From the NCBI GenBank assembly GCA_038503065.1, contig JBCAMK010000003.1, positions 620,001 through 684,000 on the forward strand: 64,000 nt of DNA, given 5' to 3'. Origin of the DNA: Paragyromitra xinjiangensis (lineage: Eukaryota; Ascomycota; Pezizomycetes; Pezizales; Discinaceae). Both the position numbers and the translations under genes were made by a program. The notes beneath the pieces were generated by a model. The model saw only the letters and a list, made by a program, of their open reading frames with translations. It was not told the DNA's origin and did no database searches. The first letter of the stretch is position 1, and each line of letters begins with the position of its first letter. Positions 35,238 to 54,729 of the stretch are shown here, one piece after another.

Positions 35238-35250
35238 CGTCGCGAAAAGC
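35238..35250 (+). repeat. Left terminal inverted repeat of the giant element
   Basis: CGTCGCGAAAAGC, identical to the reverse complement of 54717-54729 over all 13 bases. Beyond this the two ends diverge. Confidence 0.95.
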
Positions 35251-35459
35251 CCCAAAAAAGTCGTAGGCCGCGGTAAAATTTAGCAATTTCCGGTAGCCTC
35301 GCCTAACATATGGGTCCTACCACGCGCCTCCCATAGCATATCCGTGCTTTTGGTAGTCTCTCAAAGCGCATGGCGCCTTTAGCGAGCAATCTCGTAGCCT
35401 TCCCGTATACTTTCGGGAGGCTTTGTGTGTTAGCTCTCCTTTCATGGTCTTTCGCGATG

Positions 35460-35830
35460 CCCGCCAATATCCGTGCACTCTACCACCCACTCTGACGTGC
35501 CCACCATTTTGCTACCATTGCTACCATGGGCTTTCACCGGGCTTGCTAATATCTGTGCAACTCTGACATGTCTACCATTTTGCTACCTTTGCTACCGCGG
35601 GCTTTCACCATGCTCGCTAATATCCGTGCACTCTACCGCTAACTCTGACATGTCTACCATTTTGCTACCTTTGCTACCGCGGGCTTTTACTATGCTCGCT
35701 AATATCCGTGCACTCTACTGCTAACTCTGACATGTCTACCATTTTGCTACCACTAACTCTGACATGCCTACTATTTTACGTGCTTTCGCTATGTTTGCTA
35801 GTTTAAGTCCTTTGATTCGCTACTAGACGT
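35460..35830. repeat. Tandem ~82-bp repeats near the left end
   Basis: At least three imperfect units share TCTGACATGTCTACCATTTT, GCTACC.TTGCTACCGCGGG and CTCGCTAATATCCGTGCACTC. Clear units are at 35562-35643 and 35644-35725, with degenerate units on either side. Each unit carries one CTCTGAC word. Confidence 0.8.
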
Positions 35831-35904
35831 GCTTTCGCTATGTTCGCTACCAGTATGCCACAAGAAACAGAAACACCCCAAGTACTAGCTAAAGACCTAT
35901 CCTA

Positions 35905-36615
35905 ATCCAACATGAATATGAAAAAATTCCCTGTAATAACGTCCTGCGGTTGCCATCTGATCTACTGGGAACCGCCACGAAGACTAAGGACCAAGTGCAA
36001 AGTTGACTCCTTCTGGGTGGCCTAGCTTGCCGTCGAAAATGAGACGCTGCTGGTCTGGAGGAATGCCTTCCTTGTTCTCATCCAACATGAATATGAAAAC
36101 ATTTCCCGTAATCGCGTCCTGCAGTGCCATCTAATCTACTAGGAACCGCCACGAAGACTGAGGACCAAGTGCAAAGTCGACTCCTTCTGAGTAGCCTAGC
36201 TTGCCGTCGAAAATGAGACGCTGCTGGTCTGGAGGAATGCCTTCCTTGTTCTCATCCAACATGAATATGAAAACATTTCCCGTAATCGCGTCCTGCGGTT
36301 GCCATCTGATCTACTGGGAACCGCCACGAAGACTAAGGACCAAGTGCAAAGTCGACTCCTTCTGAGTAGCCTAGCTTGCCGTCGAAAATGAGACGCTGCT
36401 GGTCTGGGGGAATGCCTTCCTTGTTCTCATCCAACATGAATATGAAAACATTTCCCGTAATCGCGTCCTGCAGTGCCATCCGATCTACTGGGAACCACCA
36501 CGAAGGCTAAGGACCAAGTGCAAAGTCGACTCCTTCTGAGTAGCCTAGCTTGCCGTCGAAAATGAGACGCTGCTGGTCTGGAGGAATTCCCTCTTTGTTG
36601 TCCTCAATCTCGACA
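35905..36615 (-). repeat. Four tandem ~175-bp units encoding a ubiquitin-like peptide
   Basis: Units begin at about 35905, 36079, 36253 and 36428. On the minus strand each unit can be read as …LDENKEGIPPDQQRLIFDGK and continues LGYSEGVDFALGP before a stop. The core KEGIPPDQQRLIF.GK matches 15 of 16 residues of the most conserved ubiquitin segment (residues 33-48). In two units an upstream ATG gives a short frame starting MALQDAITGNVFIFMLDENK. The rest of ubiquitin (MQIFVKTLTGK start, LRLRGG end) is absent. The array is probably a captured ubiquitin or ubiquitin-fusion gene fragment amplified in the transposon. No evidence that it is expressed. Confidence 0.85.
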
Positions 36616-36715
36616 CACTCGGACTTCGCCTCTGACACCAACACTCTGACACCAACTCTGACACCAACACTCTGACACCGACCCTCTGACACCGACCCTC
36701 TAACGCCGACCTTGC
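36616..36715. repeat. CTCTGACACC repeat cluster downstream of the transposase
   Basis: At least five copies of CTCTGACACC separated by AACA or GACC lie within about 80 bp, directly 3' of the transposase stop codon. They belong to the element-wide motif set. Confidence 0.85.
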
Positions 36716-39606
36716 CTAATAAACCGTGTTAAACATCTCTAGATCGATGTAGTTGTTGATGAAATATCGCCCTTTTTTGCCTGCTTCTGCAGCGATGAGG
36801 TGAACAGCACGGGATATACGGCTCACTGGAATAATTCTCCGCTTTGTCGTGACTCCGGTATCCGATAGCTCCGATTGTTTACGGACTTCTATCATGCCGC
36901 TGTTTGGGTTAGGCCTACCGGCATTCATCACAGTCAGATATTCCACCAACGCCAGTTCGTGGCCTATTTTGCGAAACTTTGGACGACCGTTGTCTTTATT
37001 TCCATCGGGGACCTTGTCGATGAAGGTGAAAACACAAATGAGCTCTGCCGGCTTCAAGCCAGTCTCATTGAAGTAGCTCTGGTTAGGCCCACTAACCCCA
37101 GGCTCTGTTTGAATGAGGACGTGGTCGTACCGGGAGCCATCTCCCCTCCAATCGGTCACACATCGCGCAAATTCTGTGCAGAATTCCTCGGGGTCGTTGT
37201 GAGAAGGGAAGCTGGCCACCACTCCTGTGCCCATCGTAACCTTTTGTGCTGCAATCCAGGGGATACTGCTTCGATATTGTGTCAAATGATAACTAGTGTT
37301 CGCCCCGGATTGGATTGTAAAGAGATAATCCCGTACAAGCTTCAGCAACTCTGACGCGGACGCCAACTCTGACGTGGGCGCCAACTCTGACGTGGGCGCC
37401 AGCTCTGACGTGGGGGCCAGCTCTGACGTGGGGGCCAGCTCTGACGTGGGGGCCAGCTCTGACGTGGGCGTCAACTCTGACGCTGACACGTTGATGTGGC
37501 GCGGTAGCTGCAGTTTTCCCATCAAAACTTGCTTGGGAATATGCCCACTTATGACAGTTTTCCTTTCTTTCCGACCGACTCGTAACTCATCCACAAGAGA
37601 TAAACAGACTGTTGCCCATCGTGAGCCGGTCTTTATCAGATGTTGCAGCAGCGCGGTTCGTGCTTTAAGTTTGAACAATCTATCCTCCCATCTTAGCATT
37701 TGCAAAAGCGGCTTTACCTTGTTCGTTGATCGATAGGCCTCTTTGATCATCCAGGAATGCGCGGCTTCACTTTGCTCTGTGTCAGAGTTGTCACATGATC
37801 CGAAGTCGCGTATACTCTCGGTGTAATGGCGCATCATGTGAAGCTTTGGTATGCGGTCAAAGTTTCCAGAGTCCCTGGATTCCACGAAGTTCCCCAAAAG
37901 AGACTCGTAGCCCGCCATTGCTTTATCCATCATTTCCAGGGTGTTCTCTGTATGGGAGTGATAGCCGGCAAACATAATGAATTCAGTAAGATGTTTCAGA
38001 CATCTCAAGTGCTCCAGTCGTCTTTTAAAAAATGGTGCTAAGACCCCGATCCACACCTTCAGCATGTGCTTGTATTCTGCCCCCGTCCACTGAGAAATCT
38101 GGGAAAATTTGTGACCGAAGTTCTTCAGATCACTAAACAGGGGTATCTCTGCGAACCGCTGATCAATCTCCGCGATGACGTGTGGTCCATGCTCCTGTAC
38201 GAGATATGTACATACCCACTTCCATGTATGGTCCTTCAGGACGCCCTTGAGTAATTGATGAAGCCGGTCTGGATTGATTGCATGATAGATATTGCAGTGA
38301 ACGTGGTGGGCGGCAAAGTTTTCGAAATCAAATCTCCACTGCCCTACGGCTTCGAGCTCCGCTGTCGACATTAGAGCATAGCGGGTGGGATCTCTGGGGG
38401 TAGGCGGGACCCCAGTCAGAGTACTTAAGTTGTCGGGCGCGCATTCGCACCTAGGGCACCACATAGACTTTACCAATGTCAGAGTGACCATTTCTGGGTA
38501 ATCGGCTATCCATGTCGCGATGCGGGGAAAGACTTTCCTTGTATATCCGTCTGCACAAACGACATCTGCCCCTTCCTGGCCTGTGGATTCAAAAGGGCGC
38601 AACATCTGCCGGATTGCCTCGTGAAAGGTCTTTCTCGTCGTTTCTCTTGCTGGGTTCTTTGGGATTTTAGGGAGGATTCCAAGCAAGACCAACCCATTCA
38701 TTCTGACGGCTCGTCGTTTCTTTTTCGCGAGGTTTCCAACCGACATATATACTGGCCATGCACTCTTATCACCGCTCAATGTGGATAGCATTGTTTTGTC
38801 GCTACCGATAATAATCGGTGCAATCGTTGCCCCCTTGGGAGCGTTCTCCTAGTTGGAAGTCAATATAAACATCGGTGTCAGTGTCAGTGTCAGTGTCAGT
38901 GTCAGTGTCAGAGTCAGGGAGCCGAGACTAGAAGGGCTTTTACCTGTTGCCGCCACCACCAGTTGCCTGTCCACATCTCAGAATATAATCGTTTGCCGTT
39001 GGAACCATAATCCTTTATCGGAGAATAAGTCAAGTGGTCTTTGAAAGGTAGGTGGCCGAAAAGATATCTTAGGATTGCCATTGGATCTCGATACCAGTAT
39101 TCCACCTCTTCACCTTCGATATTAACCGTACCCTCCATCCATTCGCAGTCAAGTCCGTCATCCATAGCATGTATCAACTCGCGGAAATGATCGGCACTTT
39201 TAATATTGATCTTATCATTGAATATTCCACGACGTATCATACGATCCAGGGCGGCCTTTCCCGTATTCTCCTCTACATGGGTACGGCAGAAGTCCCATTG
39301 TAACTTTGATTTGAAAGGAAACAAAGGATGCCAATCGGGGCTATCACATGGATGAGTTACTGGTGGGCATGGTAGAGCGATGCCCGCATCAGGAAAAGTA
39401 TCTGGTCTTCGGGGCGCACCCTCCTCCTCCTCCTCCTCCTCCTCCTCCTCCTGTCCGGGACAGCTATTGTCCGCGTCGTCTTCATCGAACCTTACACGAT
39501 CTCGGGACTGCTTATTGTGAGTTCGACGATGATGGACAGTCAAGCCACCTGGGCTAACAAAGGACTTTCCACAGATTCCACAAAGAAAATCCAGTCCAGA
39601 GGGCAT
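36716..39606 (-). CDS. Plavaka-type transposase with N-terminal C2H2 zinc finger, intact
   Basis: Exons are 39606-38944 and 38848-36716, giving 931 aa without stop or frameshift. Residues ~6-28 form a C2H2 finger (CGICGKSFVSPGGLTVHHRRTH), probably for DNA binding. An acidic run of glutamates follows. The conserved WYRDPMAILRYLFG...MWTGNWWWRQQ block ends exon 1. Exon 2 starts ENAPKGATIAPIIIGSDKTMLS and continues LSGDKSAWPVYMSVGNL, CADGYTRKVFPRIATWIADYPE, CPRCEC and INPDRLHQLLKGVLKDHTWKW, as in Plavaka/CACTA-related transposases. The 95-bp intron (38849-38943) contains a GTCAGT microsatellite. About residue 645 a SELAPT repeat is encoded by eight 18-bp repeats, each carrying the element-wide GTCAGAG word. 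The ATG was chosen because upstream codons have only non-ATG starts. It catalyses excision and insertion in the nucleus. Likely functional by sequence. Confidence 0.93.
38849..38943 (-). repeat. Transposase intron with (GTCAGT)n microsatellite
   Basis: Nearly half of this 95-bp intron is a run of about six GTCAGT units (38876-38912) ending CAGAGTCAGG. The donor is GTAAAAG and the acceptor ACTAG. Such runs also occur in the helicase intron at 50669-50831. Confidence 0.85.
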
Positions 39607-40160
39607 TGAAAGGGCGGCGGGATCGCTGCTTGAAGTTAGACAATCAAACAAACGAAGCAAAAACAAAGGGTTCTAGCTCTGACACTGACACTGACACTGA
39701 CACCAACCGACTCTAACTCTGACGTGGTGAGATCTGGGCGGACGTATATAAGCTGGATTGTAGGTCAGATTCGTTGGTGGCTGTTGACTGCCTTTGTTTG
39801 CTTGTTAAAGGGATAAGCCGAATCGGGAAACGAGGCTGCAGCCGGAAGCACCTAACCTGGCTAGACCAGCCGCCAACGTCATTGAACAAACACAGCAACC
39901 TCAACCTCCGCTTCCGCCTCGCCATCACTACCACCACCACCACCACCACCACCACAACCACCACCACCCTTGCAATCTCGGGAAGCAGCATTTGGGCATC
40001 AGAGACATCGAACAATCAACGTCAGAGGACTATACCCCGCTATGTATATAAAGAGACCGCTCGCCCGGCTAGCTGCAAGTCTATACTCGCCTATCCGAGT
40101 CCTCCACCCAAGCGACTTCTTTGACAGCACTAGCATACCTACTCTGATAGCGACTTGACA
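39607..40160. promoter_or_regulatory. Divergent promoter region between transposase and helicase genes
   Basis: The 554 bp between two divergently oriented start codons carry a CTCTGAC/CTGACA cluster (39675-39725), a (CCA)n run (about 39929-39965) and TATA-like sequences TATATAAGC (about 39745) and GTATATAAAGAG (about 40045-40055). The latter lies about 110 bp before the helicase ATG and is a plausible TATA box for that gene. Binding of the transposase to the motif cluster could regulate both genes; this is inference. Confidence 0.55.
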
Positions 40161-43100
40161 ATGGCACAAGCAGGTGGTAATATTCGAGAGTGGCCGATAG
40201 CCGCATCTAATTATACCGTCGAAAATGTGAGAACTGCCTTTAAGTTGGACAAGTCGGAGACGCAGGAATTTCTCGGCTCAGATGCTGTTACCGATGCCGT
40301 TTCAGAGCTAGTAGCATGGAAGACGAAGTATGCCACTGCTCAGTCGCCTTCACTAGCGCAAGTTACCACAAGGAATATTGTCCCCGCCGGCCAGCAACCT
40401 GTGGGAAAACTTCAGGTATATCAATCTAAACACCCACTCTGACATCACGTACTCTGACATCGGTTATCTCTGACATCGCACACTCTGACATCTCTTGATA
40501 TAAATAGGAAGATATGACCATACTCGAGGGCCTAGTCGATGGTGCTCGGGTTTTTTTTGCTCTTGGTCCCAATGACCCCGTAGTTCTCAACGATATTCGC
40601 GATGCCCATCGGGTTCTAGGCTGTGCTGCTCGGCAGGCCGTACGCAGTGGCGGCACCCGGCTGCCACCCCGAGACGGCCAGCGGCTCCAGCTCCGGCTTC
40701 TGTAGCTACTACTCCAAGGGCATCTCGACGATCAGCAACCGCAGGCACTTCTTCTTCGTCTGCCACTCCTTCGACCGCCACCTCAAGTGCGAGAAGGCCA
40801 GCAACCCGGGCCCCTTCTACCTCTCAAGCCTCTCCTTCGACCCAGGTCGGTGCTAGAAGAAGCACTGGTGCTAGGAGTACTTCTCGGTCTCGAACTTTGG
40901 CAAGGCGCGATGCCGTCCCTGCAGCCCGTACAGCTCCATCCCAGCGAGACTCTGGGAGCCCACCACGCAGCAGGATTCGAGTGGAAGACCGTGGAGATCC
41001 GGAACCCACGATTGAGAAACGAGTCGATCTTCAAATGGTATGGGATAATCACCCACCGGAAGTGCCGAAAAGGAGCGCCCTAAAGTTTCAGGCAAACATC
41101 CAACGCCGCCTGCAGTACTGGGGTGACTTCGAGCGCTGGGTAGAGACCGAATATGGCCTATCTTTCCTTGGGTTACGAGTCGCTCAGTACTTGGCCAGCA
41201 CCACGCCATCACCGCAACCGAAGTTTGATCTGGACGATTATGAGCTTACAGAGGCGGATTGGGAGTTTGCTGTATCCAATGCTAGCCGCATGGGGATCTT
41301 AATGGTATCACTCACGACCGCTCCACAAGCTCCAGCTCCAGCCCCAGCACCTCCCCATGTGTCAGTGTCAGAGTCGGCAGCGCAGGACGAAAACAACGAT
41401 ACCGCAGACAATGAGGAGAGGGAGAGGGAGAGGGAGAGGGAGAGGACCGACCAAAGCCTCCGGCGATCCACCAGCAGAGTGGCAAACCTTCGCATTGGCA
41501 ACGAAGCTCCTGAAGATCAAGATGTTGAAATGCCTGACCGGCCCCAGGAGACGCTATCCACGGCGCGCAACCCGGCTAGGCAATCACGCCAGGCTGCTAG
41601 AACACCCACACCCGTTGATGAGCAGGACCCGATGGAGGATGAAACAGAACATCAGCGCGCAGCTGAAGGGAAGGGGAAGCAGAGGGAGGAAGGGAGGGAG
41701 GGGAGGATCAGGGCGCAGCTGGAGGGAAGGGGAAGCAGAAGGAGGGGAGGGGGAGGAAGGGAAGGAGGAAGGGGGGAGGAAGGGGGAGGAGGGGGGAGGG
41801 GGGGGATAACCCACCGGCGGATAGCAGCGAAGATTCGGCCAGTTCGCAGTCGGAACCAGATATCGGTGAAATAGTGAAACCCACGCGGCGTCTCACCGGC
41901 ATTGGCCGGGGCGGGCCTGACAGCCAGGTTAAACCCAGGCCGAAGGTTCTGATCAACACAGATGCCGACTTTGATCTAATTGCCGGGCTCCATTCGATAA
42001 AATAGTTCTTGGTGAGACTGGAGATGATTCTCGGAAGGAAGGGCCCGATGACGCCGAAGGAGATACAGCTAGTGTTGAATGGTACGAGTCATGCTCTGAC
42101 AACCCACTCTGACAGTACACTCTGACAGTCGGCGTTTAATTTAGGTTGCACAGAATCCTGGATAACGAGATCTTCCAAAGGGAGAATCTCCAAGAGTCGT
42201 TCACTGCCTTGGGCATAGACCCGGCGACACGGGCTTTTCCATTGATCAAACCTCCATTCAAATTTATGGACCACCAGATAATCGGCATCAATTGGATGAA
42301 GGAAAAGGAAGAGGGTTTAGCATATGGGGGACTCCTCGCTGATGACTGTGGCACGGGTAAAGTAAGTGTTCAATCAAACCGTTCCACATCACTCTGATAT
42401 TATTTCTTATTCCTGACTCGGACCAACCAGACAATGACACTGCTGGGACTACTGTGTATTCAAGCTCATGAGTACGAAGCACGTCGGGTCCAGCAAAACT
42501 TGACTACGGAATTCTACCAGCAGGCTCTCGGGACCTACGAACGATCCAAAAGGGAAGGGACACTCAAGGAGGGAGATATGAAGCCCGGAACCCGGATAAG
42601 ATCTTCATGGGACCGACGTTGATAATCTGGTACCAATAACTCTGACACTCACTCTGACACTGTCAGTACTGACTCTGACGTTTGTGATCTTTAGTCCGGT
42701 TCCAATGATTTCGGAATGGCAAGAGGCAATTCGTAGCAACACTCTACTCACTCCGATTCTCCACTACGGCAACACTTTTTTCGATAGGAGGGCTTGGCAC
42801 CAAATCAACTCTGCCAGCAAATTCCCGTGGCGCCATGTCATCATTACCACAAAGGAAACGTTGATGAAACGTTGGAACACCAAGGACTTCCGGGGCCGAA
42901 GATTTTGGGGTACTGAAGACTTGCTTCTTCAGCGTTTAGTACTCGACGAAGCTCATCGCTTCCGAGTGTCCGGCGCCCCCCCAGCAGGCGTCATTAGCCC
43001 CACCACAGGATTACTTTCCCGCAGCAACCCAAACAATGCCATGGCAATGTGGGCAAAAAATTTGGACTCGCTAAATCCAGAGGCCAAATGGATGTTAACG

Positions 43101-44073
43101 GCCACCCCTCTAGTAAGTACCATGTCAGACCTCCGGTGGGTATGTCGGTTCCTACAACGGCCTGAGTGGCTATCGGACAACCTGCCCCCAGATACGTTTG
43201 CCAATAAACACGACATCGAGTTAGGAGCGTGGTTCCAAAACCCTGATCGACCCAGCGAGGACGGAAATAATCTGGATGCAGCCTTTACTCCTGTCGCAGA
43301 TCCGTTCCGGGATTATAAGGCACATGGCTCTTATGTCCACTGCACAACAAAAGCCTGGAACGCCTTTATCTGGGGCAATCTCAATAATGCATCGAAGTTG
43401 CAGCACCTCCAGCGCACAGGAATGATCACCCCGAGCCAGCGGCAACATTTGTCAGACTCCCTGCGGATAGTGGGAGGATATGCGCAAGAGATTTTGCGTA
43501 CTCTGATACTCCGCCGCTCGATGGTCAGCAGGATTCCGTTTCGGGTGGGTAAGCCGATTATCGATATACCCGTCATGAAGACTGTCACCACTCGCCTGCA
43601 GTTCGCAGATGACGGATCCAAGGATGTTTATTCCTTCCTAGTCGACAATTATGCCCAAATACGCGCTTCTTTTGGCAGGTCAATAGCAGAAGGGCAGCAA
43701 GCGCCAATTCCAGGCCATAAATTTGGCCCCCGTTGGCGTTATATTTGTTTGGTTTCATTGTCCCCTTTGCTTGCCTATGCTTCCTTTGCCGAGGAGTTTT
43801 CCACGGAGAACTTATTCAGCAAGGACCGGGCGGATGAAGGCCGTCCACACCGTTTGAAGGTGAAATCTCTGCTGACGAAGTTCCGCGAGCAAATGCCGGA
43901 CAGGGGAACAGATTTCTACCCGGAATCTATGGCCAACATGAGCGATGAGGATATGGTCCGGGCAATGGAATTCTGCAGTCCAAAATTGGGTCGACTCAAA
44001 GATCGATTGCACGAATTGGTCACTTTGGGCGGGAAGAAGGTTATATTGTGGGTCTATTGGCCTCTGTCGCAAT

Positions 44074-44086
44074 GGCTAATTCAAGA
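44074..44086. repeat. Target-site duplication of LINE C, left copy
   Basis: GGCTAATTCAAGA, repeated exactly at 50655-50667. In the helicase gene it encodes the end of WLIQE. Confidence 0.97.
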
Positions 44087-44506
44087 TTATTTATTTATTT
44101 ATTGCTCATATTGCATAAATCCGTAACGGATATGGCATACAGTGAAAGGAAACCCCCATGACCGCACAATAACTAACAAAAGAAAATCCTCCGCGAACAT
44201 GAACCAACTAGTTAGTAGATATCCACATCATATATCTTTCGCGAAAAACATAAGAAAAGTAAATCAAAAACAAATAACATAAAAGATAACAAAAGAGGAA
44301 ATAACAATTTATCTCAAAGTTCTACCGAACAGTAGAAACGAACGGAATAACAATTGACAGGGTAAAATCATAGGGAAATACTCAAACAGTTTCATAGTCA
44401 GAAATCCTCCACACGGTCATGTTCCATCTCACCCCACTTTCAGGGTCTTCATCAGTTTTCTATCGTCCTTCACCATCGCATGCTTTGGGCCTGTAGCCCG
44501 TTCTTT

Positions 44507-47500
44507 CTAGCCGTTCTCTCCTTCTCCTTCGTTTTCTTCCTCTTCGTCGTTGTAGAGGTAAATTCCTTGGTGGGAATACCTGTTGTCTTCTTGTCGTTCC
44601 AGGGTCCAATTTCTGGTAGCGATTTGGGTAGGTGTGAGGAATGTTTCAATGGTGGTAGCCAGGCCGGCATTGGTGTGCATTGCAGTTCTCCATGTGAGTG
44701 GCATTGGTTTGAGGGCTGCTTTGAGTGCTTTGCGATGGGCAGGAAGTGGTTCCTGGCCACATTCTAGCAGTAGGTGTTGTGGTGTTTGGTTATCGAAGCC
44801 ACATTTGCATTTAGTGTCTTCAATGTTGTTGGTAGGGATTCTGGCAAGGTAGGATTTGGTGTATCCATGTCCGGTTCTCATTTGAGTGATGGTGGAGGCT
44901 GTTCTTCTGGGGATGTTTCCCCTCAGCGGGGCACTTGGTTTCAGTGCTGGTTGTCCGTAGTAGCTGCGCCCTTTCTTTGCCTGCTTCCATTTGGCTTTCC
45001 ATGTCGTCAGGGAGTGTTCCTTGATGTTTCTCTTGAGGTATGTGATGGAGGTGAGGACATCTGATTCTATCCTGGTTCCTTGGGCTCCTATCTTGGCGAG
45101 CTTATCAGCTAGCTCGTTGCCGGCAACGTTGACATGTCCTGGTACCCAATAAACATGGGTTTTGATGCCACTGTCTTCAAGTTGAAGCAAGTTGTTGCGG
45201 GCTTCAATGACCAGGTGTTGGCCTGGCATAGGGAGGGGTGTTGTCATTCGTTGTACTGCTGCTTGGTTGTCGCAGTAGATGTAGACATCGTTTGTCAGGT
45301 GAGGTGATCGTTGTACTTGTAGGATTGCATGTTTAGTGGCTTTTGCAATACCATAAAGTTCTGCGTCGAAGACTTCATTTTCTTTGCCGAGGTGGAAGGA
45401 TTTGTTGACCACAGAGTGACCTCTGCGGAAACCAGCAACTCCAGCTCCTGTTTTGCCTTCCAGGAGGGAGCCATCAGTGTAGAATACTAGGCGATCAGTC
45501 CTAGTACTGTCTCCAGCTGTGTGGTTCCGATGGTTTTCTGCTGCTGCGTCTTTGTCTGAAGGGTCAATGTAGATGTCTATGGTGTTTTGGTGCCATGGTG
45601 GACATGCCAGATTGTCTACGCATTCAATCTCTGATTGTGGCTGGATCCATTTGTTGGTAGATGCCAGTATCCTATGTAGTCTTGTTTCGTATTTGGGGGA
45701 GGTGGTGGTTTGGTGCCATGGAGTGTTGTTGGAGCTATCTGGGTTGTTGTTTTCCTGGGTTGAAGGCCAGGAATCAGGGCAGAGGGAGGTGATGGGATGG
45801 GTGTTGGGTAGGGAAAGGACTCGGAGTGCATATTTCCTTTGCAACTCGTCCAATCTGATTGGGGTAGGGAGAAGTCCTGTCTCTGCTTCCAGGGCATGGA
45901 CAGGTGATGTTCTGAAGGCTCCAGCAATCTTGCGCATTGCTTGATTCTGGACTTTCTGGATGGTGTTGCTGAGTCCAATCTGCCCGTTCCACCATACTTC
46001 AGCTCCGAAGTCACTGATGGTGGCTACACAGGTTTGGTAGAGTTGGCGGAGTGCTTTGTAACTCAGTCCTTTTTCTGTGCTTGCGAGACGGGAGATAGCC
46101 ATGAAGGCTCGAAGTGCGGAGGCAGCTTTGGTCTTCACATGATGCTTGAATGTGAGTTTGCGGTCAAACCAGACACCCAGCCATCGCTGGACATCTGCAG
46201 CCTCAATCACGTTGCCATCAGGCATTGTGACTTTGGCTTCATCAGAGGTGTCAGTTGTTCGTCTGGAGTGGAAGTGAGTGAGTTCTGTCTTTGGATTGTC
46301 AAAGTACAAGGCATTTTTCTCACCCCATTCGGAGGAGGTGAGTGCCATTGCTTCCAGTGTTCGAGAGTTTTCTGCTTCAGACTTTCCTGTAACCAGAAGG
46401 CCCACATCATCAACATAGCTGGGGCAGGTGGAATCAGGATATTTTTCTTCTAGCTCGTTGAACAAAGGAGCCAGGTAGAGGAGGAAGAGGATAGGGGAGG
46501 TGGGGGATCCTTGTGGGATTCCAGTTTGAATGGGTGCCATGGCTTCAATTTCACCGTCGAATGCCATACAGGCTGTTCGATTGCTGAGGAAGGAGTCCAC
46601 CCATCGGCAGATGGGAAGTGGGAGGTCCAGTTCTATCATGGTCTTGATCAGTCGTCGTTTGAATACAAAGTCATAGGCACCTTTCACGTCCATGCAAAGT
46701 GCAGAGAGTGTTAGGCCTTTCTTTTTGGCTGCATCGGCAAGCGTGCTGATAAGCATGCAAGCATCCACAGCTGATCTTTTTGGTCGACCTCCAATTTGCC
46801 ATCTATGGAGAAGGTGATATCTTTCTGCCATAAATGCTAATCGGGTTGCTATGATCTTTTCTGAGACTTTGCCGAGGCAGTTGAGGAGTGATACTGGTCG
46901 GTAGGCTTTTGCTATCGTATAGTCAGGTTTATTGGCCTTTCTGATGATTGCAATTGTAGCTTCGCGCCATATGGTTGGGTGGTATCCTGCTTTCATGGTG
47001 GCTTTGTAGAAGGAGTTGAACTGGGTCGGGTCAACTTGATATGCTTTTTGAATGCATAGGAAGCCAATTCCATCTGGTCCAGGGGCTTTCTTTGGTGCTG
47101 AGGTCATGATTGCTTTCCGAATCTCATCGTTGGTGAGGTCTTTCCATGGGATCTTGTGTTTTCCTGCTGGAACAGGTTCATCAAGTTCCACGGAGGGAGG
47201 GGGAGGGAATAGAGTTGCTCGGAAGAGATTGGCTTTCTCTTCAAAGGTTTTGGACTCTTGGAGTGTGGTGGGATTGTGTAGGGTGGGGGTGCGTTCACAT
47301 CTGCGTGGCTTGGTGTACCTCATTGCTGTGAAGACATCTTTTCCGTGAGCTTCTTCCAGGAATGTATTCCAGTGTTCACTCTTTGCTGTTCGGATTCGTC
47401 GGAAGTAGGATGTTCTCAAGTTTTTGAATCTTCGCCACATGGCTGGAGTCTGATCTGTTCTCCAGTCCCTGAGGGCTGTTTTCATGTGTCTGCGTCCTTC

Positions 47501-48511
47501 TTTGATGTCTTCATTCCACCAAGGTTTGGCGAAGGGTGATGGTTTTCGTTTGGGTACATGGATGTGGGCAGCTGCTATGATTGAATCTCGTAGGTGTTGA
47601 GCTGCTTCGTCTAGGTTTGAATGGGTTGGGTGGGAGTGTAGGAACTCCCAGGTGTCTTTAGTGGTGATGGAGGAGAGGGTGAAAGTTTGTTGGAAGCCGT
47701 CCCAGTCCGCCTTGGCCCAATTAAATTGTTCCGTTGATGGTGGGGGGGCACATTCCAAAGAGTCAGAGGCAATTTCAAACTGAACAACTTCATGGTCGGA
47801 TCCTGTTGCAAGGTCTTCCATGACTGCCCAGTTCATAATCAAGTCTGTCATCGGTGAGGAGGAGAAGGCAAGATCCAAAACGGATCTGCCAGTGCCTGTA
47901 GGGTAATTGTAGGTATAAATATCAGGCTCGTTAATGAGGGTATAGTTGAACTCTTCTAGTATAGCTAGGAGTGCTTCATGTCGTTTTGGTGAACGGACTC
48001 GTGAGTCCCAGAGAGGGTGGTGGGCATTGAAGTCACCTGCCATGATACAGCGTTCTGGTAGCTTTAGTCCCACAAGTACACGTTCAACCGTGTATTGTGG
48101 GTGGCTGTCAGGAACTCGTTGTGATGCTGCAGGTTGTTCATTGTAGATGTTAAGGAGGGTAAAAGCAGGAATGGAGGGGGTTGACAGCTCTATGGCCTGT
48201 ACATCTTCGTTATTGATGATGTCGGGTCTTGGCTGATATTTCAGGAAGAGGTTGGATTTGGATATAAAAGTCATGGTTCGAGGGCGGTTAATGCTGCTTG
48301 GAATCATCCTTGTGAATGACCCATGCGATATTGATGTCCATGAGTTTGGTGGTGCGTCAGGAGAAGTATCGGGCATAACAAAAGGTTCTTGAATAATAAC
48401 TATATCAGCCGTTTCTGAGGCTGAGTCGAGGAGGGATAACATAACATTTTGGTTTCTTCGGCAGTTGTGTTGCATCAGGCGGATCTTGTGTGGGTTTGGT
48501 TGCACAATCAT
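44507..48511 (-). CDS. LINE C ORF2 protein (endonuclease, reverse transcriptase, RNase H)
   Basis: 1334 aa, intact. Residues 1-~230 form an AP-like endonuclease (MQHNCRRN, IIQEPF, AGDFNAHHPLWDS, LDLAFSS, GSDHEVV) that would nick the target. The reverse transcriptase spans about residues 450-750 (KKAPGPDGIG, AYRPVSLLNCLGK, DVKGAYDFV, GIPQGSPTSPILF, YVDDVGLL, LGVWFDRKL). RNase H lies near residues 980-1110 (FYTDGSLL, DAELYGIAKATKHA, CDNQAAV, VPGHVNVAGNELADKLAK). A CCHC-type knuckle (CKCGFDNQTPQHLLLEC) is near the C-terminus. The domain order and the RNase H fit the Tad clade of fungal LINEs. The ATG overlaps the ORF1 stop by 4 bp. Confidence 0.96.
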   Translation of the reverse strand: MIVQPNPHKIRLMQHNCRRNQNVMLSLLDSASETADIVIIQEPFVMPDTSPDAPPNSWTSISHGSFTRMIPSSINRPRTMTFISKSNLFLKYQPRPDIINNEDVQAIELSTPSIPAFTLLNIYNEQPAASQRVPDSHPQYTVERVLVGLKLPERCIMAGDFNAHHPLWDSRVRSPKRHEALLAILEEFNYTLINEPDIYTYNYPTGTGRSVLDLAFSSSPMTDLIMNWAVMEDLATGSDHEVVQFEIASDSLECAPPPSTEQFNWAKADWDGFQQTFTLSSITTKDTWEFLHSHPTHSNLDEAAQHLRDSIIAAAHIHVPKRKPSPFAKPWWNEDIKEGRRHMKTALRDWRTDQTPAMWRRFKNLRTSYFRRIRTAKSEHWNTFLEEAHGKDVFTAMRYTKPRRCERTPTLHNPTTLQESKTFEEKANLFRATLFPPPPSVELDEPVPAGKHKIPWKDLTNDEIRKAIMTSAPKKAPGPDGIGFLCIQKAYQVDPTQFNSFYKATMKAGYHPTIWREATIAIIRKANKPDYTIAKAYRPVSLLNCLGKVSEKIIATRLAFMAERYHLLHRWQIGGRPKRSAVDACMLISTLADAAKKKGLTLSALCMDVKGAYDFVFKRRLIKTMIELDLPLPICRWVDSFLSNRTACMAFDGEIEAMAPIQTGIPQGSPTSPILFLLYLAPLFNELEEKYPDSTCPSYVDDVGLLVTGKSEAENSRTLEAMALTSSEWGEKNALYFDNPKTELTHFHSRRTTDTSDEAKVTMPDGNVIEAADVQRWLGVWFDRKLTFKHHVKTKAASALRAFMAISRLASTEKGLSYKALRQLYQTCVATISDFGAEVWWNGQIGLSNTIQKVQNQAMRKIAGAFRTSPVHALEAETGLLPTPIRLDELQRKYALRVLSLPNTHPITSLCPDSWPSTQENNNPDSSNNTPWHQTTTSPKYETRLHRILASTNKWIQPQSEIECVDNLACPPWHQNTIDIYIDPSDKDAAAENHRNHTAGDSTRTDRLVFYTDGSLLEGKTGAGVAGFRRGHSVVNKSFHLGKENEVFDAELYGIAKATKHAILQVQRSPHLTNDVYIYCDNQAAVQRMTTPLPMPGQHLVIEARNNLLQLEDSGIKTHVYWVPGHVNVAGNELADKLAKIGAQGTRIESDVLTSITYLKRNIKEHSLTTWKAKWKQAKKGRSYYGQPALKPSAPLRGNIPRRTASTITQMRTGHGYTKSYLARIPTNNIEDTKCKCGFDNQTPQHLLLECGQEPLPAHRKALKAALKPMPLTWRTAMHTNAGLATTIETFLTPTQIATRNWTLERQEDNRYSHQGIYLYNDEEEENEGEGENG

Positions 48512-50112
48512 TGTTCCACCATGATGTCTTTTTCAGTTCGGGAGAGGTCTGGGCGTGCAACACAGGACCTGTCAGTGGCTTTATGTGTTCCACCACAGTT
48601 GATGCATTTGGGAGGCATGTGGGCGCAGGAGTCAGTGGCTCTGCAAGTCCCACAGAAGTGCTTGTTGGTAGCATGTTCGTGTCCACAGTAGGCACAGGCT
48701 GGCTTGGAGGAGGGGCATCTCTGGAACTTGTGTCCAAACTTTTGACAGTTAGAACATTGGTCACCAGGGCGCGCAGTCAAATAGGCTCCGGTCCTGTGTC
48801 TTTGGCCGAAGATGAGGATTCCGTTTTTGATCAGTTTGTTGTACATGCTTTTGCTGGTGATGGCAATCATCACCGAGCTGTGGGACTTTCCATTTCTCTT
48901 GTCTGGATGGGTCATGTAGCGAGGAGGTGCTGCCAGTTTGAGATCACTGTTTTGGTATTCCAGTTCGTTTTGCAAGTCGCTCATGCCAGTACGATTGTCA
49001 GGGTATTCCATGATTGGGACTCCATGGATGGCAACCTTGTGCCAGGACTCCTGTTTGGAGAGAAAGAGAGCTTTCTCATCGCTTTCCTTCACAACTTTCT
49101 CAATGGTGGCCTTGTGCAGGTCAAAGTCAGTGCTGGTGAATCCATTGCGAGTGTAGAGCAGGAGATTTGCTTTCAGGTTCCAGGAGATTCCTGAGATCTG
49201 GAGGCTTTCTGGTGCTTTGGCAGTCAGGAGTTCTTTGTTAATGGTGTTGCGCAGGACAAGGAGGTTGAGGTTTTCTTCTTTCTGATCACCACTGCGTTGG
49301 ACAATCATGTTCTTGGTGAGTTCTGGGGTTGGGGTTGTGGGGGTATCAGTGTTGGCCTTCGCAGGCTTTCCATCTTTCGCCACAGTGGCCCAAGTCTTTG
49401 GTGCAGGAGGTGGAGGAGGGGGAGGAGGTGCTGGCGTGTTTTCAGTTGCCTTTCCCTTTCCCTTGTTCTTCTTGGGTTGTTGGGGAGCGGTGGGGATTGT
49501 TGTTGCTGTGATTGCTGGTACTGCTGGAGTTGCTTTCAGGGTGCGGTGGATTGAATCTACTTTCCCGATCACAGTGTGGCTCATGGAGCCCAGGGAGGTT
49601 GAGATTTGGGTGGTGAGGTTGCTAACCATCATCTTGAGCTCAGCGATTTCCTTGTTCAGGTGTTCATTCTGTGCCATGAGGTGTTGGTTGACGTCGTTTT
49701 GACTCATTGGGAGTGCAAAGTAGCTGGGAGTGCGTTTGGGAGGTGGAGCAGATTGCTGTTGGTTGCCAAAGGTTCTCTTTGACGGGCCAGCTGCGGATCT
49801 GGTCCTGGTCATTGGTTCTGGCTCGTAAGTGAGGTCAATTCCTCCCAAAGTGTTCCTAAATGATAGAGGATGTGTGGGGGAGTTGCCAGCTGAGGAGAAG
49901 AATGGTGGTGGGAGTGTGATCTTGCGAGCAAATGGAGCCGGGAGTGGTTTGGTGGTGGAGGAAATAGGGTCGCTGCTCATGATGTCTGGAGCATGCTGGC
50001 TGACGTTCAGGAATCGGTTTGTGGCCGTTATGGTAGGGCTGGAGGGAGGTGAAGATGGAGGCACGATGGGAAGTTCCGTATCGTCTTGCATTTCATCCCC
50101 GTGGGCCGACAT
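48508..50112 (-). CDS. LINE C ORF1 protein (gag-like, CCHC zinc knuckles)
   Basis: 534 aa, the same length and nearly the same sequence as copy A ORF1. Differences are few (for example PPKRTPSY against PPKHTPSY, and CPSSKPAC against CPSTKPAC). It carries the same helical segment, Pro run and three C-terminal Cys/His knuckles. It acts as the RNA-binding partner of ORF2. Confidence 0.93.
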   Translation of the reverse strand: MSAHGDEMQDDTELPIVPPSSPPSSPTITATNRFLNVSQHAPDIMSSDPISSTTKPLPAPFARKITLPPPFFSSAGNSPTHPLSFRNTLGGIDLTYEPEPMTRTRSAAGPSKRTFGNQQQSAPPPKRTPSYFALPMSQNDVNQHLMAQNEHLNKEIAELKMMVSNLTTQISTSLGSMSHTVIGKVDSIHRTLKATPAVPAITATTIPTAPQQPKKNKGKGKATENTPAPPPPPPPPAPKTWATVAKDGKPAKANTDTPTTPTPELTKNMIVQRSGDQKEENLNLLVLRNTINKELLTAKAPESLQISGISWNLKANLLLYTRNGFTSTDFDLHKATIEKVVKESDEKALFLSKQESWHKVAIHGVPIMEYPDNRTGMSDLQNELEYQNSDLKLAAPPRYMTHPDKRNGKSHSSVMIAITSKSMYNKLIKNGILIFGQRHRTGAYLTARPGDQCSNCQKFGHKFQRCPSSKPACAYCGHEHATNKHFCGTCRATDSCAHMPPKCINCGGTHKATDRSCVARPDLSRTEKDIMVEQ

Positions 50113-50668
50113 GGTTCCGGAAATTTTCGGAAATTTTCGTGTAACGGATACTAAAAATAAATTGCCGAGACAAAAGTTGATTGGACGTTGAAGACCAGAG
50201 GCTGATTGGGTTCCACCAATGGAATGTTCCAGAAGGTAGCAGGTGATGTGCTGTCAGTCAGAATTGCAATATTCCGAGATTTCTGGCGATTTTGGGCGAT
50301 AAAATGAGTACTACTCGGGCGCCTGTGGGCCGATTTGGCTGAAACTAAAAATCCTGGGCCGTAGTATGTAGGCGGCGTGGATGTGCAAGTTTCAAGTCAA
50401 TCGGACAAGAACTGGTTGACTGGCGACGATTTTGAGGGGGGGCTCGGCGGGTTTTTTGGTGGGGTGAGCCCCAAAGAGGGGAAATGAAGGGGAAAATCAC
50501 AACAACTTCTGCAATAGAAGAGATGGATTTCCCAGGAGGTGTAGAAGGGGGTAAAAGGGGGCGCTGATTCCGAATATGAAGTCGGTTTGATGATATCTCT
50601 GTTGGTTGTGGAGTTATTTTTCGAAAATTCGTCCTGGTAGAATGGTTGTCGCGCGGCTAATTCAAGAA

Positions 50669-50831
50669 GTAAGTAGCCTTCTGTCAGTGTCAGTGTCAGT
50701 GTCAGTGTCAGTGTCAGTGTCAGTGTTGGCGTCAGCGTCAGTGTCAGTGTTGGCGTCAGCGTCAGTGTTGGCGTCGGCGTCGGCCCCACTTGATCTCTTA
50801 ATCGCTCGATCATGTTCTAACATAAAACTAG
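50669..50831 (+). repeat. Helicase intron made largely of GTCAGT and GGCGTCAGC units
   Basis: The 163-bp intron has a GTAAGT donor and a CTAG acceptor. Its first half is (TGTCAG)n followed by GTTGGCGTCAGCGTCAG units. It lies only two bases after the right target duplication of LINE C. Confidence 0.8.
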
Positions 50832-51314
50832 TACGTTCGACTGCTCGGGATTACCTGCTTCGCTGTCTACAGTGGTCTAAGCAATAAGAATCGTGACAAA
50901 ATAAAGGATTCATTCAATAAAACCAAGGACATCGACGTTCTGGTCCTCTCCTATCTCTGCAGCAACGAGGGCATCAATCTTCACTATCAATGCTCGGATA
51001 CCATCATGGTAGAGCAAGGTCTTTCCTATGCATCGGAGCATCAGGCATGGAGTCGGGTCCGCCGCATCGGGCAAAAGGAAGAGCAAAACACCGAGCGTCT
51101 AGTTAATCTCCAAACGATCGATACATTGATCGAGAAGGCCCAGCGGGAGCGCCAGAGCCCTATGCTATATGCATGGGGAATTATGGAGAGCCTCGGGGGA
51201 ATAGCAGACACAGACGAGGTCTTTGACACGTTGATCGGCAAGATACCTCCAGCGGTTTTAAGAGACCAGATTATTGGACGCGGGGGCCCAGATGAGCTCG
51301 AAATAGAGGACTGA

Positions 51315-52063
51315 CTCGGCACTCATCAGACTTCTATTCTGTCAGAGTTGCGCCGGTTAGGATATGGGTATTGGTTTTCTTTCTTGTTTTGTTCGGGTAT
51401 TACTATGGGTACGGGATGGGTACGGGATGGGTACGGGATGGGTATCGGGGGACAGGGTATTGGTTTTCTTTTCTTTTGTCTGGGTGCTGCTGCGGGTACG
51501 GGTATCGGGGGGATATGGGTATTCGTTTTCTTACTAGTTTTGTCCGGAGCCCGATGAGCTCGAAACAGGCGGCTGACTCGATATTTGTCAGACCTCCTAT
51601 TCTGTCAGAGTTGCGCCGTCGGGGGTATCAGTTTCCCTTCTTATTTTGTCAGGATATTACTATAGGTATGGGACGGGTATCGGGGGCATATTTTTGGTTT
51701 TCTTTATTTCGTTTCTGTTTTTTCCATGGGTTATCTTTATTATGTGGCGGAGGGTTTACTTTTACTATGGGGACGGGCTCGGAGTACTGCAAATTTGTAT
51801 TTATTGGGAGGAATAGGAAGGTTTTTTTCGAGTGAGAAGACATGATATTCGACTTGAGCCTAGCGTCGCAGATCCTTCCAGCTCCGCGGGTCTCAGGCCT
51901 CCCAGTACCGTGGATCCCCCTTTATCTATCCCCCTTTCTTCTTACGATCCCTCTCCCTCTTCTACCAACCATCATAGCCTTGCATTACTGCCTTCACTCC
52001 CCTGTTTCGCCCCATCACCCTTGTTTCCCCCCCTTGATTGTATTTGTATTAAACATCCTCGCC
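51315..52063. repeat. Intergenic G-rich minisatellite and DUF6532-gene promoter
   Basis: Between the helicase stop and the next start, a GGGTACGGGATG-type minisatellite occupies about 51405-51460, with GGGTATCGGGGG pieces to about 51540. A duplicated block including GAGCTCGAAA..GG.GACTGACTCG and CTATTCTGTCAGAGTTGCGCC occurs at about 51296-51356 and 51556-51616, so the end of the helicase gene has been partly copied. G-quadruplex formation on the plus strand is plausible. Confidence 0.65.
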
Positions 52064-54020
52064 ATGCCTCCAAAAAGTCAAGCAATATACCCTGATACAC
52101 AACGAAAGACGCGTAATTCAGCTGCATCGTCGTCTACAAATACTGACAGCAGACGTGGCAGAGTTTCGAGAAAACCCTCGGGTGGTCACGCGTCGACACG
52201 TCGAAGGGCCACCACTGCCCTGACACTACCAGACAGCCAGGCAGCCAGCCAGTCAGAGTACGACTCTGACACGGCGACGGGGGCAGATGTTCTCGCAAGT
52301 TCCAACATTTTGGTGCCAGCTACTCCTTTCGAACCTTCTACCATGCCACCTCCTCCTCCTCCTCCTCCTCCTACTCCGCCACCTCCTCCCCCTACTCCGC
52401 CACCTCCTCCCCCTACTCTTCCTCCCCCTTCGCAGACACCCCAAACCGAGCCCTTGAGCATACTATCGTCTCCTCCAGTTGCTGTCACCGCTACCCAACA
52501 TCCGCCTTGTGCTCAGCGGAGTCCGAGAGAGCTAGACTTAACTCCCCAGACCCCGCTCCCCAGCATTCAGCAAAGCCCAGATCTAGGAGATTTTGAGGAC
52601 TTGGGGGCAACTAGAAGTGATGATGATTCTTCCGGGCCGTACTTGCTATACTCTTCCAATAGAACTCCGACCCCATTTCAACCGCCTGTGAGGAAGTCTA
52701 TTGGACCTGGCGTAAGCTATCCCCTTCAAATAGGATATGTATCCTGCATCGGCTTCAACTCTGACATTTACTCTGACATTGGCTTACTCATACTGATAGT
52801 CCTCCGTTTCCAATTTGTCTTCAAGCAGTGGACACGATAGTAATGGGAGCGGTAGCTATGCCGGCAGCAATTTCCGAAAAAGGAGGTCGGCCTCGACGCT
52901 GTCAGACTCGGTCCCGCCTAGTGAGGCAAGATCACGGGACAAGAGAAAAATAGGCACACTGAGGGATAGAGGTGAGCTTAATCCCAACTGGTCAATTGCA
53001 AGAGATATATTCGTACTACGAATACAGACGGAAAACCCCTACCCCCGGCCAGACGTGCAGGAGATGATGGCTGTTTCTGTGTTTCGAGAGGCGTATGGGG
53101 AATCGGGTGATTGATTCGACCTCAGCGAGATCGGCGATACCGAAATTCACATGGTATCAACCTTCCTTTCCTGTACGCAGTTAGTGGAGGCTGACACTGA
53201 GGCTCTGGCATAAAGTTGGCAGACCGTATATCAACCTCCCGAGGGTACTTTGCCGAAGCGGCTAGGGAGTGTGTTTGTAAGGTGTACGGCCTTGATACAT
53301 TGAAGGGAGACGACCTCCTTAATCGCGTTCGTAGGCTTATACGCGATAACAGTCATCGTTTCCACTTTTCGGATGAGAAGAAAAAGGCGAGTTACCAGTA
53401 GTTTCCTTAACCGCTCGTCCTTCAGATCACAGTAGAGTGCTAACCCGAACACAGGTCCCGAAGAAAATGTTTTGCCATTTCGCAATCGCTAATGTAATTC
53501 ACGGTGCTTGGTACGGCAAAAAAACATATGCACGCCGACCTCACACCCGAAAATATAGCGACGAGATTAGCCCAGTGGCCTTGGTTTTGGCGACAGTAGC
53601 TATCCGGTACGCTCTTGACAATTGGTCTTCGGGGGAGTATCTTAGGAAAAACTTTGAAGGAGGGACGTTTAAAGGTGAGCCTGTGTGTATACCGTGTCCA
53701 TTCGGAACGTCAGAGTCGGAACGTCAGAGTCGGCATGTCAGAGTCGGCATGTCAGAGTCTGCACGTCAGAGTCTGCACGACGGGGGATATTGTACAATTA
53801 TCAGAGCTGATTGCAAGGCGAAGGGGTCTACGATGAGTATACCAATCAGTGGAACACAATACCGAAAGAATCGCAGCGAATTATCCTCGGCATCCAACTA
53901 ACGGAGGTAAAAAGGTTATCGGGATGGGAGACTGGCGATGGAGGGAAACCGGCGGTGGTGTGGAACCCGGAGGTGGATTTGCTTGCGGACGATAGCGATG
54001 ATTCTGGTGACGGCTGTTGA
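52064..54020 (+). CDS. DUF6532-like protein gene of the giant element
   Basis: Exon 1 is 52064-52711 (ATG in a good context, gccATGCC) and encodes a Ser/Arg/Pro-rich disordered region with a polyproline run. Intron 1 (52712-52799) contains two CTCTGACATT words. Exon 2 (52800-~53100) encodes WSIARDIFVLRIQTENPYPRPD, exon 3 (~53215-~53398) STSRGYFAEAARECVCKVYGL and FHFSDEKKK, exon 4 (~53455-53674) FCHFAIANVIHGAWYGKK, then PVALVLATVAIRYALDNWSSGEY. The last exon (53818-54020) encodes GEGVYDEYTNQW to an acidic C-terminus. This order (NPFP-like, YFR..A...V...YGL, FHF, W[FY].K, IALVLTAI...LDEW) matches my memory of DUF6532, a domain common in mushroom-forming fungi. The exon 2/3 and 3/4 junctions could not be fixed with canonical sites, so mild decay is possible. 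Intron 4 (53675-53817) holds five GTCAGAGTC words. Function unknown. Confidence 0.68.
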
Positions 54021-54729
54021 TGGGAATGGGATTTAGGGGAAAGTATATTACAGCGTAGAATAGAATGATAGATTAGCATAGATTAGCATAGATTAGCGTA
54101 GCATAGCATAGCATAGCATAGCAGAGAATAGAAGAAATAAATATAATCTCCGGGCACAATGTATCACTCTGACAGCGTCAGAGTAGTATACGAAATGACA
54201 ATTAGAGAGATTTGAGAACACTCCCAGAAGACTATCGTCGCGTACACGAAGCCTCCTAAAACACGCTCCGAAGCATATACAAAGCTTCCCCAATTCCCTC
54301 TGACAGTGTACGAGAACGCTCCCAAAAGACTATCATCACGTACACAAAGCCTCCCAACACACGCTCAGAAGTGTACACAAAGCCTCCCCAATTCACTCTG
54401 ACAGCGTACAAGAATGCTCCTAGAGGACTATCATCGCGTACAGGGAATCTACAGAATGGCTTCGAGGAGCCGCGCAAGTTACATTTCCAAAGGTCTCGAT
54501 AGTTTACCTATTGGCTGTCAAAGCTTATTGAAAGCACGGTGAAAGCACGGTAAAAGCACGGTCAAAGCAAATGAAAAACATGGGATATGCTTTTGGTTGT
54601 CTCTTGATAGACATTAAAAAGCTCGATTGGTCGTTTTCGCCTATTTCGCCTATTTTTGTTACCATAGCGTGTCAAAGGCTATGGTAACACGCAAAAGGCG
54701 GGTGGTAGCAAATCAAGCTTTTCGCGACG
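54021..54729. repeat. Right subterminal region: tandem repeats and hairpin
   Basis: GATTAGCATA / GCATA units lie at 54065-54122. Three imperfect ~105-bp units (starting about 54207, 54309 and 54416) share GAGAACGCTCCCA.AAGACTATC, CGCGTACAC.AAGCCTCC and CCAATTC.CTCTGACAG. AAAGCACGGT units lie at about 54530-54570. Next comes a perfect 11-bp hairpin, GTTACCATAGC at 54658-54668 with its complement at 54678-54688, then the right terminal repeat. Confidence 0.8.
54717..54729 (-). repeat. Right terminal inverted repeat of the giant element
   Basis: GCTTTTCGCGACG, the exact reverse complement of 35238-35250. It is followed by TA and then LINE D ORF1 sequence. Confidence 0.95.

Follow-up and report, generated by a model that had tools for sequence, protein, structure and literature searches.

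Plavaka is a lineage of cut-and-paste DNA transposons in the CACTA/EnSpm-Transib clade ('CMCT'), and Iyer 2014 is said to be the paper that founded it. A Plavaka element of about 13 kb is found in the ascomycete Paragyromitra xinjiangensis, within a stretch of 64,000 nucleotides that is called the window below (assembly GCA_038503065.1, contig JBCAMK010000003.1, positions 620,001 to 684,000, forward strand). Besides a transposase gene, the element carries predicted genes for a SNF2-type ATPase and for a protein with the DUF6532 domain. The three predicted genes are arranged head to head: the transposase gene lies on one strand, and on the opposite strand the SNF2 gene is followed by the DUF6532 gene. 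Other copies occur across the genome, and the family to which they belong (family 1) is a multi-copy three-gene transposon with this architecture, a reading to which we assign a probability of about 0.8.

Described Plavaka Families and Related Transposons

Two groups of Plavaka families have been described from Agaricomycotina: PlavakaA, with the ends TGT..ACA, and PlavakaB, with the ends CATCA..TGATG. The superfamily is recognized by target site duplications of 2 or 3 bp (Kojima 2025, PMC12730594, in the sections available). Family 1 resembles both groups in its 2-bp duplications, which fall within this range. It differs in its ends, CGTCG..CGACG, which are not those of PlavakaA and are two bases off those of PlavakaB, and in its SNF2 and DUF6532 genes; neither of these two words occurs in the main text of PMC12730594. 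A second family in the same genome (family 3) has ends identical to those of PlavakaB, together with a TA duplication.

Some Plavaka families carry an extra gene for a TET/JBP dioxygenase. Several lineages of fungal DNA transposons have repeatedly gained this possible counter-silencing gene, and gene order and orientation are conserved in some of them (PMC12730594, same sections). The elements described here are similar in this respect, but the recruited gene codes for a SNF2 ATPase.

The CACTA/EnSpm families of Chondrus crispus are also large members of the CACTA clade with more than two genes (16-20 kb, 4-5 open reading frames, ORFs); the available part of PMC6431247 gives no description of the extra ORFs. 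Many genes of the giant Plavaka repeats of Amoebidium are tyrosine recombinases, and neither SNF2 nor DUF6532 is mentioned in the available part of PMC11244446. Plavaka has also been reported from Rhizophagus (PMC11075540, likewise in part). A literature search returned no paper that joins Plavaka with SNF2 or Kyakuja with SNF2, and broader searches gave nothing relevant among the papers listed; an earlier description may exist. In the literature found, DUF6532 appears only as a listed domain, in the same sentence as Plavaka; the combination of EnSpm, SNF2 and transposon gave plant papers only, judged by their titles.

The Element and Its Insertion Site

The element spans window positions 35238-54729 (~19.5 kb), or 12,912 bp once an inserted long interspersed nuclear element (LINE) is subtracted. 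Read directly, its terminal inverted repeats (TIRs) at 35238 and 54729 are perfect over 13 bp, and TA adjoins each outer edge. The insertion interrupts ORF1 of another LINE, of which there is an uninterrupted second copy. When the element and one TA are removed, the flanks align with that copy over 2036 bp, with 90.5% identity and a single gap. The rejoined frame is 477 aa long, as is the uninterrupted one, which has a single TA at the corresponding site. An earlier reading, made from the letters of the window alone (the sequence-only reading), had described perfect 13-bp repeats flanked by TA, an exactly split ORF1 and a length of 12.9 kb without the LINE, and all three descriptions hold.

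The features of the element are the following.

35238..35250, plus strand: left terminal inverted repeat CGTCGCGAAAAGC, with TA just outside
35902..36599, no strand: tandem repeats of ~175 bp near the left end; positions 665-1537 of copy G match 665-1362 of the window element
36716..38791, minus strand: transposase exon 2 with the Plavaka domain; 691 aa from the first ATG, with D, D, C(2)C, H(3)H and E residues
38914..39666, minus strand: ORF of transposase exon 1, containing a C2H2 finger and the first part of the Plavaka domain; the splice is taken from copy P
40161..40420, plus strand: beginning of the helicase gene (MAQAGG...), covered by an alignment of its first 260 nt; exon end provisional
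41925..44086, plus strand: exons of the SNF2 ATPase core up to the LINE, with motif I (LADDCGTGKT), DEAH and LTATP; two small exons have 1-bp deletions relative to copy P
44087..50654, minus strand: LINE inside the helicase gene, with two ORFs of 534 and 1334 aa and a target duplication of 12-13 bp
50832..51314, plus strand: C-terminal exon of the SNF2 ATPase with motifs V and VI; 160 aa, then a stop
52051..52761, plus strand: low-complexity N-terminal part of the DUF6532 gene
52800..53153, plus strand: DUF6532 exon, with one stop in the window copy
53216..53674, plus strand: DUF6532 exon, its frame broken by a 7-bp deletion common to its subfamily
53818..54012, plus strand: C-terminal DUF6532 exon
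54717..54729, minus strand: right terminal inverted repeat, with TA just outside

The LINE at 44087-50654 is bordered by the duplication GGCTAATTCAAG(A). The number of ~175-bp repeats near the left end varies among the copies of the element. A CACTCTGACA-like repeat is abundant in the introns and spacers of these copies. It contains CTGAC, which we take to resemble a branch site, and intron lengths may thus vary through its copying.

The Three Predicted Genes

The two transposase exons score 163.1 and 67.5 bits with the Plavaka domain PF18759 (Pfam cut-off 26.3). The C2H2 finger in exon 1 scores 24.7 bits, slightly below its cut-off of 25.2. Thus, the full Plavaka-type transposase with a C2H2 finger that had been proposed stands as to its Plavaka domain, and its finger falls just short. 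Residues D8, D97, C112/C115, H318/H322 and E339/E342, a set expected in the CACTA/RAG1 group, are each conserved in all 39 aligned proteins or in 38 of them. The C and H pairs are located between D97 and E339/E342, and the conserved D and E residues are the putative catalytic ones. Transposase is the only gene with open frames throughout in the window copy. In copy P, the transposase frame is interrupted, and the helicase core and the DUF6532 exons are open. Viral contigs were scanned twice for relatives of the transposase and helicase, and none was confirmed.

Splicing copy P at four GT-AG introns gives a helicase core of 816 aa. It contains the strings LADDCGTGKT, VLDEAH, LTATP, SYLCSNEGINL and QAWSRVRRIGQ, which we take to be SNF2 helicase motifs I, II, III, V and VI. 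It scores above the cut-off with both PF00176 (SNF2-rel_dom, 88.6 bits) and PF00271 (Helicase_C, 27.4 bits), in agreement with the divergent SNF2-type ATPase seen by the sequence-only reading, and its best sequence match in the PDB is Rad5. A search of 5.8 billion proteins gave 16 matches, namely nine relatives (33-59% identity) and seven distant SNF2 proteins; among the nine, Trichophaea hybrida, presumably a Pezizomycete, was the sole one with a fungal name at a high score. These numbers refer to the best 8000 candidates, those sharing most words with the query, and named ascomycete relatives may exist beyond them.

In the window copy, the LINE divides the helicase gene, which also carries the two 1-bp deletions. 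In copy N, five aligned helicase exons are free of insertions and deletions, and the two exons tested for stops contain none. Relatives of the helicase without a nearby Plavaka gene in the same genome are family pieces at C11:1.43 Mb (92-95%) and C6:1.47 Mb (45-61%), where C stands for contig. The remaining matches listed are C21:431055 (38% over 74 aa) and two short ones of 34%, which belong to the second family. A diverged relative of the family-1 helicase (45-71%) was also observed in two halves, at C6:1431806-1432839 and C6:1468131-1469410, on opposite strands and 35 kb apart; an inversion may have separated the halves of a single gene.

The third gene had been called similar to DUF6532. 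The spliced protein of copy P bears this out, with 91.2 bits against PF20149 over profile positions 3-193 of 194. In the window, too, SNF2-rel_dom and DUF6532 exceed their Pfam cut-offs. The Pfam description gives DUF6532 as a domain of unknown function. A search with the spliced protein scored 1094 candidates, none at an E-value of 1e-3 or below, and the PDB gave no relatives up to an E-value of 5.

Copies and Target Duplications

The searches for copies and partner genes cover the P. xinjiangensis genome (48.2 Mb, 22 contigs). The exact 13-mer of the TIR occurs 34 times, against 2 for the reversed control pattern. Ten long copies have both ends: the window copy; B, A-outer and A-inner on C1, the A pair being nested; G on C5; H on C6; K on C11; N on C14; and P and Q on C17. 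Compared through matches longer than 150 bp, nine of them are collinear over the regions of the transposase, the SNF2 ATPase and DUF6532, and the helicase region is missing from the tenth. Further matches are a C13 copy without the exact left end, a C3 copy at a contig end and a C17 match that looks like chance. The helicase also occurs at C22 and at 1.43 Mb on C11, each time without an exact element end.

Seven short elements have the same ends. Four are pairs of 1.8-2.6 kb, and in each of the other three one end departs from the repeat by a single mismatch. The homology of short pairs to the long copies is limited to ~200 bp at one end.

The long copies fall into two subfamilies. The window copy, B, G, H, K, N and A-inner form a younger subfamily, with 98.1-99.6% identity among its members. 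Copies P and Q are 99.7% identical, and the two subfamilies are 94.1-95.3% identical to each other.

A target duplication of 2 bp fits 14 of the 17 elements with two ends: TA in six, CA and AT in two each, and CG, GG, TT and TG in one each. These varied duplications indicate that insertion is not TA-specific. Thus, the TA flanks reported for the window copy are present there, but TA is not the general target, and a TA-specific mechanism was ruled out. An inversion between P and Q was also considered as an explanation of their unmatched flanks; by inspection, one junction fits and the other fails.

The sequence-only reading had proposed to search for further copies with the same ends and to ask whether the three genes always occur together, and it would have been given up had no such copy existed or had Plavaka copies consistently lacked the other two genes. 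Neither outcome was observed in the P. xinjiangensis genome: the ends recur in other copies, and nine of the ten long copies with two ends contain all three genes.

Linkage of Plavaka, DUF6532 and SNF2 Genes

Genome searches gave at least 125 Plavaka and at least 88 DUF6532 matches, which were merged to 99 and 82 loci. Match counts for repeats and large families (the Plavaka, DUF6532, SNF2 and helicase searches) are lower bounds. Of the DUF6532 loci, 59 of 82 lie within 12 kb of a Plavaka locus, 49 of these being divergent from it; 4.2% of the genome is that near. For SNF2, 19 of 52 loci lie within 15 kb of a Plavaka locus and 18 are divergent from the nearest one, with 5.0% of the genome that near. 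The linked loci are partly copies of each other, so that p-values for this linkage overstate independence.

With wider merging, DUF6532 is found upstream, on the opposite strand and within 10 kb, at 53 of 97 Plavaka loci; it is upstream on the same strand at 8 and downstream at 9. At 47 of those 53 loci there is no SNF2 gene in the tested place, and at 8 of the 97 there is a SNF2 partner without DUF6532 in its tested place. The head-to-head pair of Plavaka and DUF6532 is probably the core, and the SNF2 gene an addition between them.

A further Plavaka lineage was observed at C7:211500-219500. It is 55% identical to the Plavaka protein of the C11 element described below; a single exon represents the C7 protein in the later comparisons. 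A SNF2 gene (C7:222707-224633) and DUF6532 (C7:226078) accompany it in the same order. In the window itself, the minus strand at 19603-23806 holds further broken Plavaka-like frames between other repeats; the genome search gives one Plavaka match there, C3:641013-642053.

A Second SNF2-Bearing Family

An element of 17.2 kb at C11:1526418-1543631 has perfect 19-bp ends, CATCAGCAAAACCGATTCT, with TA on both sides. A copy at C1:2806977-2823759 matches it at 99% at both ends, and the homology stops at the same points. With at most one mismatch, the 19-bp ends occur 80 times in the genome, against 0 for the reversed control. Many short pairs of these ends, ~2-3 kb apart, were also observed.

The C11 element codes for a Plavaka protein of 1003 aa and contains two SNF2 genes and a DUF6532 match, arranged head to head as in family 1. 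The two SNF2 genes are 52% alike; one is fragmented on C11 and whole on C1. In a small set compared without a tree, the family-3 SNF2 protein scores 58 bits against the family-1 helicase and 79-88 bits against four distant SNF2 proteins, which include two Streptomyces proteins (82-87 bits). This suggests a separate recruitment, and Plavaka elements have probably recruited SNF2 ATPases twice. The earlier proposal of a transposon uniting transposase, helicase and DUF6532-like genes is thus supported and proves too narrow, since DUF6532 recurs with Plavaka and another type of SNF2 gene is found in the second family.

The opposing view, that both SNF2 types descend from one early capture and have diverged beyond recognition, would explain their shared position and orientation, but the higher scores of the family-3 protein with the distant SNF2 proteins make it somewhat unlikely.

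A 12.6-kb element at C11:1102825-1115424 has family-3 ends with one mismatch each and contains Plavaka and DUF6532; SNF2 is not among the matches listed. It looks like an example with two genes. The ends belonging to the Plavaka gene inside the nested C1 locus were also sought, and the nesting there is too dense to fix them. A repeat of ~245 bp at C11:1525202-1525446, unrelated to the transposon, has at least 36 other copies of 97-100% identity.

Relationship to Other Transposases

A tree of transposases including Basidiomycota had been suggested as a check, and a quick tree of 40 proteins was calculated. The family-1 protein clusters with three unnamed database proteins. This group and two other Plavaka proteins of the same genome lie opposite 34 others, 30 named and 4 unnamed, across a fully supported branch; the protein thus stands apart from the 30 named homologues. 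These 30 presumably all come from genera of mushroom-forming Agaricomycetes. The tree used 40 of 124 prepared rows, without the second Plavaka piece of the window, and its homologues came from the best 120 of 385 matches, beyond which named ascomycete relatives may lie.

Selection and CpG Bias

Copy P was compared with the subfamily of the window copy and N over stretches of at least 60 codons. Synonymous and nonsynonymous changes number 51 and 32 in the transposase, 33 and 33 in the helicase, and 18 and 16 in DUF6532. Relative to a neutral nonsynonymous share of 0.76, a value set by us, the probabilities are ~5e-13, 4e-6 and 3e-4 for this single comparison along one split. All three genes are, on these counts, constrained between the two subfamilies (ratio of nonsynonymous to synonymous rates, dN/dS, below 1).

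Among the singleton C>T changes in the seven copies of the younger subfamily, 41 of 86 are at CpG and 10 at CpA; this count omits two of 88 changes that adjoin a gap. Classical repeat-induced point mutation of the CpA type was rejected on this preference for CpG. The CpG-biased changes suggest that copies of the element are methylated at CpG.

DUF6532 in the Younger Subfamily

At the site of the 7-bp deletion, copies P and A-outer are open, and copy M has no insertion or deletion, its stop lying in the other exon. Copy Q carries a separate 1-bp deletion. An intron that absorbs the deletion was considered and rejected: A-outer is open without the supposed donor, and the intron options in the younger subfamily delete residues that are kept in P. 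The younger subfamily was amplified with a broken DUF6532 gene, and DUF6532 is thus not needed in cis. For this subfamily, the protein may be supplied by P-type copies or other Plavaka families, or it may be dispensable. Autonomy, which had been ascribed to the element, is conceivable for the three-gene family; in the window copy, both the helicase and the DUF6532 gene are broken.

Possible Roles of the Accessory Proteins

In the mechanism proposed here, in which movement, expression and binding are predicted from sequence, the C2H2-bearing DDE transposase would cut and join the ends of the element. The second protein of CACTA elements binds the element ends. DUF6532 would be an accessory protein that possibly binds ends as well and could act when provided in trans. 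Its recurrence head to head with Plavaka gives it a role that can be tested. The SNF2 motor would slide nucleosomes or strip proteins from silenced, CpG-methylated copies, making their ends and promoters accessible. SNF2 genes in the same slot of two families, their constraint and the CpG bias of C>T changes all point to such a role in anti-silencing or access, which we rate just short of an even chance. Tentatively, and with slightly less confidence, Plavaka elements can be pictured as two-gene transposons at heart, into whose same slot SNF2 motors were recruited at least twice independently as a means to counter silencing.

Some observations weigh against these readings. The borders of all exons rest on GT-AG sites judged by eye in the DNA sequence. 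A-outer, the outer nested copy on C1, is without the helicase-bearing middle part, and long copies P and Q and one short element have no matching duplication. Each of the seven copies examined from the younger, most recently amplified subfamily (window, N, H, G, K, A-inner and, by alignment, B) has the 7-bp frameshift in DUF6532. Neither DUF6532 nor SNF2 is found in the tested place at 36 of 97 Plavaka loci, and the SNF2 locus on C10 lies on the same strand as the nearest Plavaka. In DUF6532 exon 2, synonymous changes between P and M number 2 and nonsynonymous ones 9, a ratio of 1.34; within the younger subfamily, the transposase gives ratios from 0.41 to 1.32 on few changes. The CpG bias could also have other causes than methylation.

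Alternatively, the SNF2 ATPase may belong to the transposition machine itself, as a motor for synapsis, end release or target choice. Its gene does lie between those of the transposase and DUF6532 in nine of the ten two-ended long copies and is constrained between subfamilies, and unlike SNF2 genes fill the same place in the second family. However, 47 of the 97 Plavaka loci have a divergent DUF6532 gene and no SNF2 gene in the tested place, so that the basic reaction seems not to need SNF2, and the 12.6-kb C11 element looks like a case with two genes. A part in the machine is rather unlikely. The SNF2 and DUF6532 genes could also be passive cargo, captured from the host. Loss of the helicase region from one copy and the frameshifted DUF6532 of the younger subfamily would be expected of cargo. 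The idea is nevertheless improbable in view of the constraint on all three genes between subfamilies, the linkage of DUF6532 at many loci in one orientation and the finding that SNF2 genes of two dissimilar types hold one and the same position; moreover, among the helicase matches listed in this genome, C21:431055 is the only one beyond both families.

That the three-gene unit arose by an accident of nested insertions can hardly be upheld. The region is indeed dense in nested elements, such as the LINE in the helicase gene and the nested copies on C1. Nine copies with different flanks are nevertheless collinear over their full length, with 94.1-99.7% identity, and seven of these nine have matching short duplications.

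If the SNF2 gene does serve counter-silencing, a transposon-borne motor of this kind has its parallel in the TET/JBP enzymes that other DNA transposons of fungi have acquired, and its probable double recruitment would parallel the repeated capture of TET/JBP genes. With a SNF2 motor of its own on a cut-and-paste element, access to transposon ends in silenced chromatin becomes testable with purified proteins.

Other Features of the Window

Shared subterminal repeats were sought in the element, and a few common 9-mers were found that form no convincing array of binding sites. The window also contains a host gene, for protein disulfide isomerase. LINE copies at 24269-30822 and 44507-50112 are very similar by eye, each with an ORF1 of 534 aa. 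ORF2 has 1334 aa in the LINE borne by the transposon and is split (1224 and 153 aa) in the LINE at 24269-30822.

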